Below, in pieces: positions 37,370 through 42,140 of a stretch of 43,883 nt of DNA. The stretch is from an uncultured Sphingomonadaceae bacterium. Lineage in GTDB: Bacteria; Pseudomonadota; Alphaproteobacteria; Sphingomonadales; Sphingomonadaceae. The translations under genes and the position numbers were made by a program. Numbering within the stretch: the first letter of the stretch is position 1; every line of letters begins with the position of its first letter. The notes under the pieces are model-generated. The model was not told the origin of the DNA. It saw nothing but the letters and a program-made list of their open reading frames with translations, and made no database searches. The DNA is taken from the NCBI GenBank assembly GCA_938003725.1, contig CALKXX010000017.1, positions 1 through 43,883 on the forward strand, written 5' to 3'.

Positions 37370-39058
37370 CTATTCCTTCGGCTTCCAGAGCAGAGGTGTC
37401 AGCTCCGATACATCAACATCACGGTGCTCGTCGGGAACAACTCCCAGCATAGGGCCAACGCGGGGCACAACCTTGCGCACGATCGGTGCTGCGGTCCAAC
37501 CAGCCGTACGTTGAAATCCTGTCTCTGCGCGCCCTTTTGGCTCATCCAGCATGGCGATCACTACATAGCGCGGGCTGTCCATCGGGAATGCCGCAGCAAA
37601 GGTGGAGACAAGTGATGTCTTGTTATACCCGCCAGCCGCTGGCTTTTCAGCTGACCCGGTTTTTCCCCCGATACGGTATCCCGGTGCGTCGGCTTTTCGG
37701 CCTGTTCCGCTCGATACGATCATGCGCAGCAATTGCCGCATACGGGCGCTAGTTGCGGCCTTGAATACCCGTCGCCCTTTCGGCTCTTTACCGGGCTCAA
37801 CTTTCAGCAATGTCGCCGGCCGCCAAATACCGCCATTGACCAAAGCCGAATAGGCACTCGCCAAATGTAGGGGAGTGACGGCAATACCATGCCCATAGGC
37901 CACGGTCATATTCGTAACCCGGCCCCAGCTTTTCGGCCATATAGGGTGCCCGCGTTCCACCAGTTCAATATGCGGACGTTCGTCAAAACCAAGACTACGG
38001 ATCATTTGCTCCATGCCGGCCTTGCCAAGATTATCAGCCAAGCGAGCCGTGACGATATTCGAGCTATGTACCAGTGTTTCCGGCACATTCAAATAGCGCC
38101 CTTGACTATGATCATCCTTGATCGTGAAACCGGCGACCTTGATCGGCTCCATCGCATTATAGCGGACCGCAAGATCAGTCACCGTCCCGGCATCAAGCGC
38201 GGCAGCGACAGTAAGCGGCTTGAATGTTGAGCCCAGCTCAAACACGCTTTGCGTCACTTCGTTCGTTTGATGCTTCATCATTTCCTTACGGATTTTATTC
38301 GGGTCAAATACAGGCAGCGATGCCAACGCCATCACTTCACCCGATTCAACGTCCAATATGATGCCCGCGGCTCCCCGCGCATCGTTGACCGTCATTGCCG
38401 TCAGCAATTCACTTTCCAAAGCCGCTTGTACCCGGCTGTCGATAGAAAGCACTGCTGGCGCACTACGCTTGAACTCATCCTGAAGCTGCTCATTGAGCAC
38501 CCGCTCCATGCCCATCACACCCTCACCATCGGAATTGACATAGCCCAAGACATGGGCCGCCAAATCACGTTGCGGGTAAAGCCGCTCATTTTCGCGAGGA
38601 AACTCAATGCCTATTTCACCTAGTGCGTGAATTTTCCGGACATCGCTCGGCAATGCGCGGCGGCGCAAATAGGTCGCGCGCGACCCGCTCAACTTTTCAA
38701 AAAATTCCTGTTGGCTGGTATCGGGGAAAACTGCGGACAATTGACGCGATAGAAGCTCTTTGTCTCCCAGCACCCGTGCCGGCACGACACGGATTGCATA
38801 GCCCCGCATTGTCCGCGCAAGCGGCACGCCATTGCGATCCACAATATCTCCCCGCGCAGGAACAAAGATAGGGCTCGACGCGCGAACCGGTTTTGCATCT
38901 TCCAATATGCTGAGACTGATAAGACGACCGCCGATCACCGCAAAAGACGCCGCAAACACAAGCAACAGCATCATCAACCGAAAATGTGCGCTGGCGACTA
39001 TTTCCTTGTGCTTACCGGTAAACTGCACTTTTCTGCTGCTTGCCAGTAGGGTTGTCAT
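37370..39058 (-). CDS. ftsI: septal peptidoglycan transpeptidase FtsI (PBP3)
   Basis: A 562-residue class B penicillin-binding protein. A short cytoplasmic N-terminus is followed by one membrane segment (FRLMMLLLVFAASFAVIGGRLISL) and the pedestal domain starting ARGDIVDRNGVPLA. The transpeptidase domain has SxxK in FELGSTFKPLTVAA, SxN in LVHSSNIVTARL and KTG in RIGGKTGSAEK. It cross-links septal wall made by FtsW. It overlaps ftsL by 4 bases (ATGA). Confidence 0.97.
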   Translation of the reverse strand: MTTLLASSRKVQFTGKHKEIVASAHFRLMMLLLVFAASFAVIGGRLISLSILEDAKPVRASSPIFVPARGDIVDRNGVPLARTMRGYAIRVVPARVLGDKELLSRQLSAVFPDTSQQEFFEKLSGSRATYLRRRALPSDVRKIHALGEIGIEFPRENERLYPQRDLAAHVLGYVNSDGEGVMGMERVLNEQLQDEFKRSAPAVLSIDSRVQAALESELLTAMTVNDARGAAGIILDVESGEVMALASLPVFDPNKIRKEMMKHQTNEVTQSVFELGSTFKPLTVAAALDAGTVTDLAVRYNAMEPIKVAGFTIKDDHSQGRYLNVPETLVHSSNIVTARLADNLGKAGMEQMIRSLGFDERPHIELVERGHPIWPKSWGRVTNMTVAYGHGIAVTPLHLASAYSALVNGGIWRPATLLKVEPGKEPKGRRVFKAATSARMRQLLRMIVSSGTGRKADAPGYRIGGKTGSAEKPAAGGYNKTSLVSTFAAAFPMDSPRYVVIAMLDEPKGRAETGFQRTAGWTAAPIVRKVVPRVGPMLGVVPDEHRDVDVSELTPLLWKPKE

Positions 39059-39669
39059 TGGGCGCTACCCCCGGACTTGTCACTAGCATCTTCTTTCTGG
39101 GCCAAACGCTTCAGATCTTGGACAACACCATCATCCAGCAACTTGTCTTCCATATCGGCGACCCGAGCGGTCCGTGTCTCGCGCAATTCCTGTCCGGTAG
39201 GCTCTTCATCGGAAACCGGGGTACCACCGTCTGAAACAATCAATGGCGATGCGCTGCCGTCAGCTCGCCGCGACTTGGTATCTGCCGAAGCAAATACCGA
39301 GCCTATGATGCCGGCTGGCTTTACATCTGTCATACTGCTGATAACGGCGACCTTGACCGGCTTGCGCAGATTATCACCACCCAGATTGGCTAGTGCGCGC
39401 TCACCGTCCAGATATTGCGATGCCTTTGGCGAAACATACCCGTATTCCAGCTTGTTCCAATTTTCGAGCTGCCGCAAATTGGCGCGCGCGCTAAATTCTG
39501 TTTCCAGATAGCGTATCTCTTTTTTTACTGACACGATTTTCTGATCTGTACGCGTCAGGTCGCTACGCAATGTGGCGACACTCAGTGACAAAGGATAAAG
39601 CAGGATAGCGACGAGGAAAACAAGTGCAAGCCACCCAATACCTTCCAAGCGTTTAACTGCGAGCTTCAT
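39055..39669 (-). CDS. ftsL: FtsL-like cell division protein with long C-terminal extension
   Basis: A 204-residue bitopic protein in the ftsL position between rsmH and ftsI. A short N-terminus (MKLAVKRLEG) leads to one membrane segment (IGWLALVFLVAILLYPLSLSV). A coiled-coil-like stretch follows (LRSDLTRTDQKIVSVKKEIRYLETEFSARANLRQLENWN), as in FtsL. Unlike classic FtsL (about 90-120 residues), another 100 residues follow that are polar, Ser/Asp/Glu rich and probably disordered. The ATG at 39669 overlaps the rsmH stop as ATGA and is preferred to 39690. Identity rests on position and topology more than sequence. Confidence 0.8.
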   Translation of the reverse strand: MKLAVKRLEGIGWLALVFLVAILLYPLSLSVATLRSDLTRTDQKIVSVKKEIRYLETEFSARANLRQLENWNKLEYGYVSPKASQYLDGERALANLGGDNLRKPVKVAVISSMTDVKPAGIIGSVFASADTKSRRADGSASPLIVSDGGTPVSDEEPTGQELRETRTARVADMEDKLLDDGVVQDLKRLAQKEDASDKSGGSAQ

Positions 39670-40604
39670 TGCAATACTCCCGCTGCCCAAGCCGGGGCAG
39701 CCGATCGAACCGCAGAACGTAAGGTGGCGGAGCGGGCTCGGGGATTAGAGACCTGCTCCGCCTTAGCCGGGCGCACCGCTTTGGCTGGTTTTTGAAAACT
39801 GGGTGCTGTCCGGATCTCGGAAACTTGTGGAATATGGCGCGAACCGCTGGACTTTTGCCCGCTACGGTCGCGTAGGAAATTTTTGACGATACGGTCTTCA
39901 AGACTGTGAAAAGTAACAACCGCTAGTCGGCCGCCGGGTTTGAGCAGACGCTCGGCAGCAGCAAGACCATCTTCCAATTCGCCAAGCTCACGGTTGATAT
40001 GAATGCGGATAGCTTGAAACGTCCGGGTTGCCGGGTCTTTCTTGTCGCCAGGTTTTTGCCCGACGGCTTTGCGAACCACCTTCGCAAGCTCGGATGTGCG
40101 GGTCAAAGGCCGAGCATTCACGATCGCCCTGGCAATTTTGCGCGAACGGCGCTCCTCGCCATAGCGGAATATCACATTGGCTATGTCTTCTTCTTCGGCT
40201 TCGTTGACGAAATCAGCCGCGCTCATTCCATTTTGCGCCATGCGCATATCGAGGGGCCCGTCTTTTTGGAACGAGAAACCACGCTCGGCCTGATCCAACT
40301 GCATGGAGGATACACCGATATCCAGTGTCACCCCTTGTATATCTTCACCCTCCAACACGTCAGCCATGCGGGAATAAACATCATGATAAATCGCCAACCG
40401 GCCGTCAGAATTTGCCACCATTTGTTGCGCGGCGGAAATCGCATCAGGGTCTTGATCAAAACCATGCACCTTTGCGCCCGCCGACATCATGGCACGACTA
40501 TATCCGCCCGCACCGAGGGTACCGTCGACATGACTTTCACCCGGAACGATGGCAAGCGCTTCAATGACTTCATCAAGCAATACTGGTGTGTGCGGCGATG
40601 TCAT
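39666..40604 (-). CDS. rsmH: 16S rRNA (cytosine(1402)-N(4))-methyltransferase
   Basis: A 312-residue RsmH/MraW that methylates N4 of C1402 in 16S rRNA. HTPVLLDEVIEAL starts the fold and VDGTLGAGGYSRAMM is the SAM motif. LDIGVSSMQLDQAERGFSFQKDGPLDMRM and ATRTFQAIRIHINRELGELE are diagnostic, and VVTFHSLEDRIVKNFLRDR ends the catalytic core. The basic C-terminal tail beyond residue 260 is long (KPAKAVRPAKAEQ). ATGA overlaps with mraZ before and ftsL after. Confidence 0.97.
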   Translation of the reverse strand: MTSPHTPVLLDEVIEALAIVPGESHVDGTLGAGGYSRAMMSAGAKVHGFDQDPDAISAAQQMVANSDGRLAIYHDVYSRMADVLEGEDIQGVTLDIGVSSMQLDQAERGFSFQKDGPLDMRMAQNGMSAADFVNEAEEEDIANVIFRYGEERRSRKIARAIVNARPLTRTSELAKVVRKAVGQKPGDKKDPATRTFQAIRIHINRELGELEDGLAAAERLLKPGGRLAVVTFHSLEDRIVKNFLRDRSGQKSSGSRHIPQVSEIRTAPSFQKPAKAVRPAKAEQVSNPRARSATLRSAVRSAAPAWAAGVLQ

Positions 40605-41095
40605 TTTTTCTTCGCCATCTTGTTAATTTCAAACTCTACAATGCGCTTGTCGACAGGAACATCGTGCGTGGTCTCCAGCAAAGTCTGTGGATCCCAAAGA
40701 CAGAAATCAACGCCGGTACCGAGGCAATAGACATGATCTTTGAACCCCGCGACCGCCTCTAGTTCCGGAGGAAGCTGAAAACGTCCGCTGGCGTCAAAGC
40801 CGGTATCCTTGAGTGAGGAAAAACGCCGAGCCCCTTCGGCCTTGCGATCAAACTTGTCGCCCCGCGCGACTGCAGCTTCCCATTCTGCCTGAATTTCTGT
40901 CAGCATATCTGCCTTCCGGCTTAAACCGCAAGCGACCAGACAATCCCATTGTTCGTGCAATCCAACACAGACGGTCCGGCCATCGCTGCTGACGATCAGG
41001 TCTTTGCGCAGGAATGCTGGAATCGCCAACCGACCTTTATCGTCAATCGCCGATATCGCAGATCCAGAATATGCAAACGCACCAGTCAAAGCCAC
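40601..41095 (-). CDS. mraZ: transcriptional regulator MraZ
   Basis: A 164-residue MraZ with two AbrB-like halves. Each carries a D-x-x-G-R motif: IDDKGRLAIPAFLRKDL and FDASGRFQLPPELEAVAG. MraZ forms ring-shaped oligomers and represses its own dcw promoter in other bacteria. The start is a GTG at 41095 with GAGGG only 3 bases upstream, a tight spacing. It is first in the dcw cluster and lies 131 bases from the nearest edge of the putative MraZ-box array. Confidence 0.95.
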   Translation of the reverse strand: MALTGAFAYSGSAISAIDDKGRLAIPAFLRKDLIVSSDGRTVCVGLHEQWDCLVACGLSRKADMLTEIQAEWEAAVARGDKFDRKAEGARRFSSLKDTGFDASGRFQLPPELEAVAGFKDHVYCLGTGVDFCLWDPQTLLETTHDVPVDKRIVEFEINKMAKKK

Positions 41096-41097
41096 TA

Positions 41098-41124
41098 TCC
41101 CTCACCCGAACCTCAGGTTCCCTC
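41098..41124 (-). promoter_or_regulatory. three GAGG repeats and a dyad just before mraZ
   Basis: Read on the minus strand there are three copies of GAGG(G/T)(A/T), starting 10 and 11 bases apart, immediately before the GTG. The middle copy is inside a perfect inverted repeat, GAACCT-C-AGGTTC (41108-41120). One copy doubles as the ribosome binding site. Binding by MraZ or a translational role is possible but unproven. Confidence 0.3.
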
Positions 41125-41194
41125 GGGCACAAAGCTCCCCCGGCGGAAGAAGCGCATGTTTTGCCGCTTCCGAAAAATATGATTCCGGACAGGA

Positions 41195-41223
41195 ATTTTA
41201 CCCCGATAAGCTGAAATGGTTAA
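41195..41223 (-). promoter_or_regulatory. candidate mraZ/dcw promoter
   Basis: On the minus strand TTAACC and TAAAAT are separated by 17 bases, about 100 bases before mraZ. An alternative pair is TTGACC (41228-41233) with TTATCG 18 bases on. Either lies next to or under the GGG-repeat array at 41226-41270, which fits autoregulation. Confidence 0.35.
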
Positions 41224-41225
41224 CA

Positions 41226-41270
41226 GGGGTCAAGCTGGGATGGAAGGGGATATTACGGGATTTTACGGGG
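41226..41270. promoter_or_regulatory. putative MraZ-box array (five GGG elements, 10-base period)
   Basis: On the plus strand the elements GGGGT, TGGGA, GGGGA, CGGGA and CGGGG start at 41226, 41236, 41246, 41256 and 41266, each followed by a 5-base spacer. In E. coli MraZ binds repeats of TGGGN with 5-base spacers in the mra promoter. The exact register and position upstream of mraZ make this a likely operator, though it reads on the strand opposite to mraZ. Confidence 0.6.
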
Positions 41271-41387: not shown

Positions 41388-42140
41388 CTAACCACCTTCC
41401 TCCGTCAAATCCTTGACCATTTGATCGACCATCAACATGGCTTGGCTGCGTTTTTCGGTCTGCCAGAGCGGGTCCGTCGTCCACATAGCCTCGTGCAAGA
41501 AATCCGCATCGGCGATCAATAATGCACGCCCAAGCCCTACTTCACAATCCGCCAGAATATTGCCACTACTAAACCGGCAATCCGCGCTAGCCGCAGATCG
41601 TTTGGTCAGGGGTTCAAACGCGCCCACACCGGCAGTTGCGATTTTCAGGTCGCCAAAATCAAGTTCGACGAAGGCGCGTTGCAAATCATCAAGCGTCACA
41701 AGTTCCAGCCCCCAATGTTTCAAGAGCGGGGAAAGCAGCCCAGAGATCAGCGGACGCCGATTGTCGCCCAAGGGCAAATCACTATGCCATATCAACATAG
41801 GATCCGTCATGATGATCGCCCGGCCGCCGCGCCGTATCCATTGGTCCAGATCATCTAGGTCAGCTGGCGCCATCGCCGGTGGCTGCGCCAATATCACAAT
41901 ATCTGTTTGCGATTTTTGCAACAGTTCAAAACTGTCCACCGGTTCGATATGATATCGCTTCTGCCAATAACCATAAATGGGATAAGGCTGAGTATCTTGT
42001 GCCAATATGTCGTTCAACGATGCACCCTCCCCCCAGACGATGGGCAGGCTGGTCATCAGTTGAATTTTGAGCTTCTCGGTATTTTCATCAGCGGCCTGGG
42101 CGCTATCCAGTTGTCGAAACAGCAAAACGCCGGCCAGCAT
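41388..42140 (-). CDS. membrane-anchored protein resembling GldG/ABC auxiliary domain, unknown function
   Basis: At least 250 residues. The N-terminus is hydrophobic (MLAGVLLFRQL), then there is an exported or periplasmic domain. LMTSLPIVWGEG, DIVILAQPPAMAPADLDDLDQWIRRGGRAIIMTDPML and ISGLLSPLLKHWGLELV resemble the substrate-binding-like domain of GldG/ABC-auxiliary proteins (DUF4350-like). GRALLIADADFLHE follows near the C-terminus. The listed ATG would cut the membrane segment short. An in-frame CTG at 42179, with AGGA upstream and overlapping the previous stop as CTGA, would give MKLGLRLATIAAV and a complete anchor. No ABC transporter genes are adjacent. Family assignment is tentative. Confidence 0.65.
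   Translation of the reverse strand: MLAGVLLFRQLDSAQAADENTEKLKIQLMTSLPIVWGEGASLNDILAQDTQPYPIYGYWQKRYHIEPVDSFELLQKSQTDIVILAQPPAMAPADLDDLDQWIRRGGRAIIMTDPMLIWHSDLPLGDNRRPLISGLLSPLLKHWGLELVTLDDLQRAFVELDFGDLKIATAGVGAFEPLTKRSAASADCRFSSGNILADCEVGLGRALLIADADFLHEAMWTTDPLWQTEKRSQAMLMVDQMVKDLTEEGG

Follow-up and report, generated by a model that had tools for sequence, protein, structure and literature searches.

A long, inverted tandem array of putative MraZ-binding boxes upstream of mraZ in a Sphingomonadaceae bacterium

MraZ regulates cell division in bacteria and is widely conserved; to our knowledge, few species have had their MraZ operators examined. Within the window analysed here (the whole stretch of 43,883 nucleotides from an uncultured Sphingomonadaceae bacterium), mraZ, rsmH, an ftsL-like gene and an ftsI-type gene follow one another on the minus strand in the order that usually opens a dcw cluster (Table 1). 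A tandem array of short G-rich boxes lies directly upstream of mraZ, the first gene of this cluster. A gene upstream of mraZ (41388-42140, minus strand) matches PF09822 (ABC_transp_aux) with 50.8 bits, and we take its product to be a GldG-type auxiliary protein.

The array at 41226-41270 consists of five GGG-centred boxes on the plus strand, held in an exact 10-base register by 5-base spacers. A preliminary description of these boxes proved correct letter for letter, including their placement on the strand opposite to the gene. Because mraZ is encoded on the minus strand, the G-rich strand is the opposite one, and each box appears as CCC when read along the mraZ strand. In this direction, units 1 to 5 begin at positions 41269, 41259, 41249, 41239 and 41229, and the sense strand runs CCCGTAAAAT CCCGTAATAT CCCCTTCCAT CCCAGCTTGA CCCCTGTTAA CCATTTCAGC TTATCGGGGT. 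The array had been described as one of five boxes, which is accurate for full boxes, but the register extends to a degenerate sixth. Only one of the five window boxes is literally TGGGN; the others read ACGGG, AGGGG or GGGGT, and relatives in the class carry ATGGG.

Table 1. Features of the mraZ locus (positions refer to the window)
Feature	Position	Strand	Basis
mraZ, encoding a divergent MraZ regulator; opens the dcw cluster	40601..41095	-	Pfam MraZ above cut-off; structure model matches MraZ structures
rsmH (mraW)	39666..40604	-	TIGR00006, 294.5 bits
ftsL-like gene	39055..39690	-	Weak NCBIfam FtsL match below its cut-off, and position
ftsI-type penicillin-binding protein	37370..39058	-	NCBIfam PBP families, each match under the family's cut-off
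MraZ operator array (putative), five boxes	41226..41270	-	Units CCCGTAAAAT, CCCGTAATAT, CCCCTTCCAT, CCCAGCTTGA, CCCC...; register and conservation
Box GGGGT	41226-41230	+	Exact register
Box TGGGA	41236-41240	+	Exact register
Box GGGGA	41246-41250	+	Exact register
Box CGGGA	41256-41260	+	Exact register
Box CGGGG	41266-41270	+	Exact register
Degenerate sixth box, TGG (+) / CCA (mraZ strand)	41217..41219	-	In register; full CCC there in most close relatives
Probable -35 element TTCCAT, bases 5 to 10 of unit 3	41240..41245	-	Register of TTGACG in other Alphaproteobacteria; TT peak
Probable extended -10 element TGTTAACCA, starting at the fifth base of unit 5	41217..41225	-	17-bp spacer from -35; G.TA in family, CCCATGnTAT in class
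Genus-conserved TTATCGGGGT	41200..41209	-	Same sequence in 29 of 32 genus loci; roughly bases +1 to +10 of the predicted mRNA
5' leader predicted for mraZ, some 110 nt	41096..41209	-	Conserved small hairpin, weak covariation

GGG triplets are short and common in GC-rich genomes, which invites an explanation by chance or base composition. However, the window contains a single match to GGG(N7GGG)x4, a pattern that 100 dinucleotide shuffles never reproduced, and three GGG in register were found 3 times, always at the array, compared with 0.46 expected. In the organism's own assembly (2.39 Mb, 73% complete), the array is the sole match to both the 4-box and the 5-box pattern. Together with the class-wide conservation described below, these observations refute chance, to which we attach a negligible probability. 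The same genome holds three further 3-box sites, and because they are few and close to the count of a backwards-pattern control, we claim no wider MraZ regulon. A gathering-level Rfam scan gave no match at the array; its sole match in the stretch was a glycine riboswitch aptamer elsewhere (RF00504, 18339-18437, minus strand, 66.3 bits).

The protein encoded next to the array is a divergent member of the MraZ family. Searched as a whole protein, it matches Pfam PF02381 in two stretches with 30.5 bits (cut-off 23). It falls below the cut-offs of all five NCBIfam MraZ models (23-45 bits versus 98-257) and went unreported in a six-frame search of the genome with PF02381, so automatic annotation may miss or misname the MraZ of this genus. 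No or only partial MraZ matches were recorded for several genomes in the family (G177, G194, G278, G192 and G263) and the phylum (G346, G375 and others). Paired D-x-x-G-R motifs (DDKGR and DASGR), one per half-domain, are kept in an alignment of 13 sequences, and D-x-S-G-R is invariant in the MraZ alignment. A structure model built with 13 related sequences (mean pLDDT 80) produced 16 significant fold matches in the PDB, every one of them a MraZ entry, with E values down to 5e-8. These matches include two complexes of MraZ with promoter DNA, namely the cryo-EM entries 9r4j, titled as MraZ with its promoter, and 9sz7, the title of which names a '4 box promoter'. A PDB sequence search with the window MraZ found no MraZ, and MraZ structures were reached only through an E. 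coli MraZ query and fold comparison. Named relatives, including Parasphingorhabdus flavimaris and Sphingorhabdus sp. 109, carry a MraZ that is 62-68% identical. The GTG start of the gene at 41095 lies 2 nt from a GAGGGA sequence, whereas 8 nt separate that sequence from an in-frame TTG at 41089; as the GTG start of relatives has this same spacing and position, translation probably begins at TTG 41089.

Conservation of the 10-base spacing in related sphingomonads, suggested in the preliminary description as a check on the array, is strongly evident at the genus, family, order and class levels. Far from being missing in close relatives, the 5-box array recurs in 29 of the 33 genomes that represent the genus (Parasphingorhabdus-type). 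All of its matches there directly precede mraZ and share its strand, and no second 5-box match exists anywhere else in those 29 genomes. As for the four genomes that lack a 5-box match, one (G016) has no mraZ match, and three loci (L011, L015 and L017) carry an off-register step inside the array. At least six CCC boxes are found in 25 of 32 genus loci and seven in 4, such that five to seven boxes are usual in the genus and five represents the short end of the range.

The same periodicity extends well beyond the genus. Among 84 upstream regions that represent the family, with a single one for most genera, at least three CCC in exact 10-bp register occur in 44, compared with 0-7 at the other periods from 5 to 19, and the CCC autocorrelation counts 207 pairs at spacing 10, 22 at 12 and 13 at 7. 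Many of the remaining family loci are off by one TCC or ACC unit or by one 11-bp step. In 25 family genomes among the matches listed, a 4-box match immediately precedes mraZ and in every case shares the strand of the gene. Some family members (L082, L090, L127 and L142; also L101, L103, L108 and L119) carry a second 10-bp GGG array about 100-200 bp further upstream on the mraZ sense strand, which is absent from the window. In loci from 30 other alphaproteobacterial families, a 10-bp CCC array upstream of mraZ, oriented as in the window, exceeds the 99% shuffle level in 24, with 72 CCC pairs at spacing 10 versus 7 at spacing 9 and 10 at spacing 11. The unit in these families is CCCAT, the reverse complement of ATGGG, and is thus of the TGGG type. 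An array that keeps its place upstream of mraZ and its orientation from genus to class supports the earlier reading as a MraZ operator, and we regard it as very probably a MraZ binding site.

The E. coli operator for MraZ (Pmra, or mraZ1p) is said to have been described by Eraso and colleagues in 2014, and MraZ there reportedly represses its own dcw cluster. Repression by MraZ in E. coli is likewise cited in PMC7761207. In E. coli K-12, the sense strand upstream of mraZ carries TGGGA-5-TGGGG-5-TGGGA followed by a fourth GGG in register (TGGGAAATTGTGGGGCAAAGTGGGAATAAGGGGT, located downstream of TTGACA...TAAACT). This operator shares with the window array its direct GGG-centred repeats, its 10-bp period and its position immediately upstream of mraZ. 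It differs in that its three TGGGN boxes and fourth GGG lie on the sense strand downstream of the -10 element, whereas the five to seven boxes of the window and its genus have a mostly ACGGG or AGGGG core, lie on the antisense strand and span the probable -35 and -10 elements. The expectation of an array longer than the E. coli type therefore holds for the genus, but by a smaller gap than had been claimed because of the fourth GGG. For Burkholderia cenocepacia, binding of purified MraZ was seen by EMSA on a fragment with four 7-nt repeats separated by 3-nt spacers, again a 10-bp period (PMC7761207), although these repeats are fewer than those of the window and overlap the start site downstream of the -10 element (PMC7761207). 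Mollicutes also have tandem boxes before mraZ that are read by an oligomeric MraZ (9r4j and 9sz7), but their boxes have another sequence (AAAGTG[T/G] repeats, as cited in PMC8475190) and the solved complex holds four of them.

The placement of the E. coli and B. cenocepacia repeats downstream of -10, on the sense strand in E. coli, is unlike that in the window, a difference that counts against the proposed mode of regulation. A sense-strand orientation as in E. coli was not found; the boxes are antisense in the genus and across the Alphaproteobacteria. At least two TGGG in register on the sense strand are seen in 13 of 28 loci from other proteobacterial classes but in none of the 30 from Alphaproteobacteria, whereas at least two CCCA in register are seen in 5 of those 28 and in 28 of the 30. 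Relative to mraZ, the boxes of Alphaproteobacteria thus face the opposite way to those of E. coli. Because both arrangements occur in the other classes, box orientation varies within the known operator type.

Conserved positions within the boxes point to a promoter. An ungapped motif model for the class (CCCATTGA.. / CCCATa.waT / CCCATG.TAT / CCCATwta.w) contains TTG and GnTAT elements that are each unique to their unit and stand two units apart, with 17 bp from TTGACG to TATCCC. In the model from the 84 family loci, TT stands in register with the TTG of the class at 2.1 and 1.7 bits, and G.TA follows after two units at 1.1, 1.5 and 1.7 bits. These elements resemble the Caulobacter housekeeping promoter type, TTGACGS-N10-14-GCTANAWC. 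Because conserved TTG and GnTA elements fall inside boxes exactly two units apart, the mraZ promoter is probably embedded in the array. The predicted start site would then lie near 41210. The corresponding window elements (TTCCAT and TAACCA) are weak against the sigma-70 consensus, and a scan with that consensus returned two candidate promoters, one on each side of the array. We set both aside as the favoured promoter, since conservation favours the elements within the boxes. As a refinement of the earlier statement that the array lies next to or over the best promoter candidates, the conserved elements lie inside it and not at the sites of a plain sigma-70 scan.

The upstream candidate, TAGAAA-17-TATAAT (41328-41300), is retained as the basis of a different account, in which the boxes read by MraZ are transcribed early, like those of E. 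coli, and bound MraZ would form a roadblock. This candidate agrees with the consensus at 10 of 12 positions, and members of the genus share an AT-rich block, AAATTAAAAT, some 35 bp upstream of the array (10.3 bits per 10 bases). However, inspection by eye showed that its -35 element is lost in one relative (L002) and that TATAAT varies. The AAATTAAAAT block falls to 2.6 bits at the family level and to 1.3 bits at the class level, whereas the in-box TTG and GnTA are conserved at both, and the block is equally well explained as a UP-type element of the embedded promoter. A roadblock mechanism from this upstream promoter is therefore, in our estimate, rather unlikely.

Initiation from the embedded promoter, as favoured here, would yield a leader of about 110 nt. 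Its first bases carry the genus-conserved TTATCGGGGT, for which the family counterpart is catcgg, and the blocks TTATCGGGG and TTCCTGTCCGGGATTC are conserved genus-wide (41096-41209 and L002-L032). A hairpin, GGAAGCG...CGCTTC, is present in the window leader, and consensus folding gave 18 pairs; we claim no riboregulator because only two of these show double-sided changes. In some relatives, TTATCGGGGT pairs with unit 5 as an inverted repeat, CCCCTGATAAC...GTTATCGGGG. We rejected an RNA hairpin as its explanation, because the window has an imperfect form of the repeat, the left arm of which precedes the predicted start site. The upstream region of mraZ in Rhodobacter, another alphaproteobacterium, likewise has its own promoter and an extended leader, which there comprises 268 nt with a Rho-independent terminator and gives rise to the sRNA UpsM (PMC5089854). 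In contrast, the predicted window leader is shorter and has no such element: a terminator scan of the stretch found no Rho-independent terminator between 41226 and mraZ.

G-rich tracts at this position could also act as nucleic acid structures. A G-quadruplex (G4) formed by the GGG tracts on the template strand might control mraZ, as proposed for Staphylococcus aureus, where a G4 in the mraZ promoter region reportedly folds in vitro and affects expression in reporter data (PMC11796246). Besides this precedent, the canonical G4 motif, which calls for at least four tracts of three or more G with loops of 1-7 nt, fits the five tracts of three to four G with their 6-7-nt loops, and does so in 29 of 32 genus loci. 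A G4 does not need constant spacing, yet the array is fixed at 10 bp, and across the class the G4 motif occurs in 13 of 30 loci as compared with 24 of 30 for the periodic array. Moreover, units decay to TCCAT or ACCAT, thereby losing the G3 tract but keeping register and flank, and positions other than G are conserved (the AT after CCC, TTG and GnTA). Because boxes decay yet stay in register, a protein site on duplex DNA explains the array better; the G4 motif is probably a by-product of the boxes, and we judge control by a G4 to be highly improbable.

Granted a protein site, its reader might be a regulator other than MraZ. Most window boxes (ACGGG and AGGGG) are not literal TGGG, and the window MraZ is itself divergent. 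Nevertheless, the array grades into CCCAT/ATGGG boxes across the class while place and spacing are unchanged, it is confined to mraZ in the genus, and the box flank tracks the MraZ arm around the K-G-R motif. In counts that ignore shared ancestry, the fourth box base (after CCC) is A in 4 of 134 boxes accompanied by x-G-[DE]-K arms, compared with 51 of 132 for x-D-x-K arms. This co-variation may be a further hint that MraZ is the reader, although it is a lead only and may reflect no more than shared ancestry. Overall, a different regulator appears improbable.

The array is very probably a long, inverted form of the known MraZ operator type, and probably embeds the promoter. From its sequence and setting, we consider it likely to be the operator through which the cluster's own MraZ exerts negative feedback on the dcw cluster. 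In the mechanism proposed, each GGG (CCC on the mraZ strand) would offer one contact site to one DNA-binding unit of the MraZ oligomer, and because a 10-bp period sets all sites on one face of the helix, a single oligomer could engage several of them. With the -35 element in unit 3 and the -10 element in unit 5, bound MraZ would cover about -60 to +5 and occlude RNA polymerase. The outcome would be repression rather than activation, in the form of negative feedback on mraZ-rsmH-ftsL-ftsI and the genes behind. Regulation could differ from that in E. coli or B. cenocepacia, because the strand and position of the boxes differ.

A broader proposal, for which we see about even odds, is that Alphaproteobacteria share an inverted MraZ operator with -35 and -10 elements written into successive 10-bp boxes. 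Sphingomonads would have lengthened this operator to five to seven boxes and changed its flanks along with the MraZ arm. A single MraZ oligomer would there engage more sites than the four of the solved complex and would block the promoter directly; the PDB fold matches include no structure of a 5-7-box complex.

These findings provide a testable rule for the whole class, in which boxes keep an exact 10-bp spacing, face the opposite way to those of E. coli and enclose the promoter. Natural arrays of three to seven boxes may help to reveal how a ring-shaped repressor copes with differing numbers of sites, and the natural pairing of MraZ arms with box flanks offers a route to working out specificity. 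Finally, the conserved G-quadruplex motifs reported at mraZ promoters (PMC11796246) may be MraZ boxes under another name.
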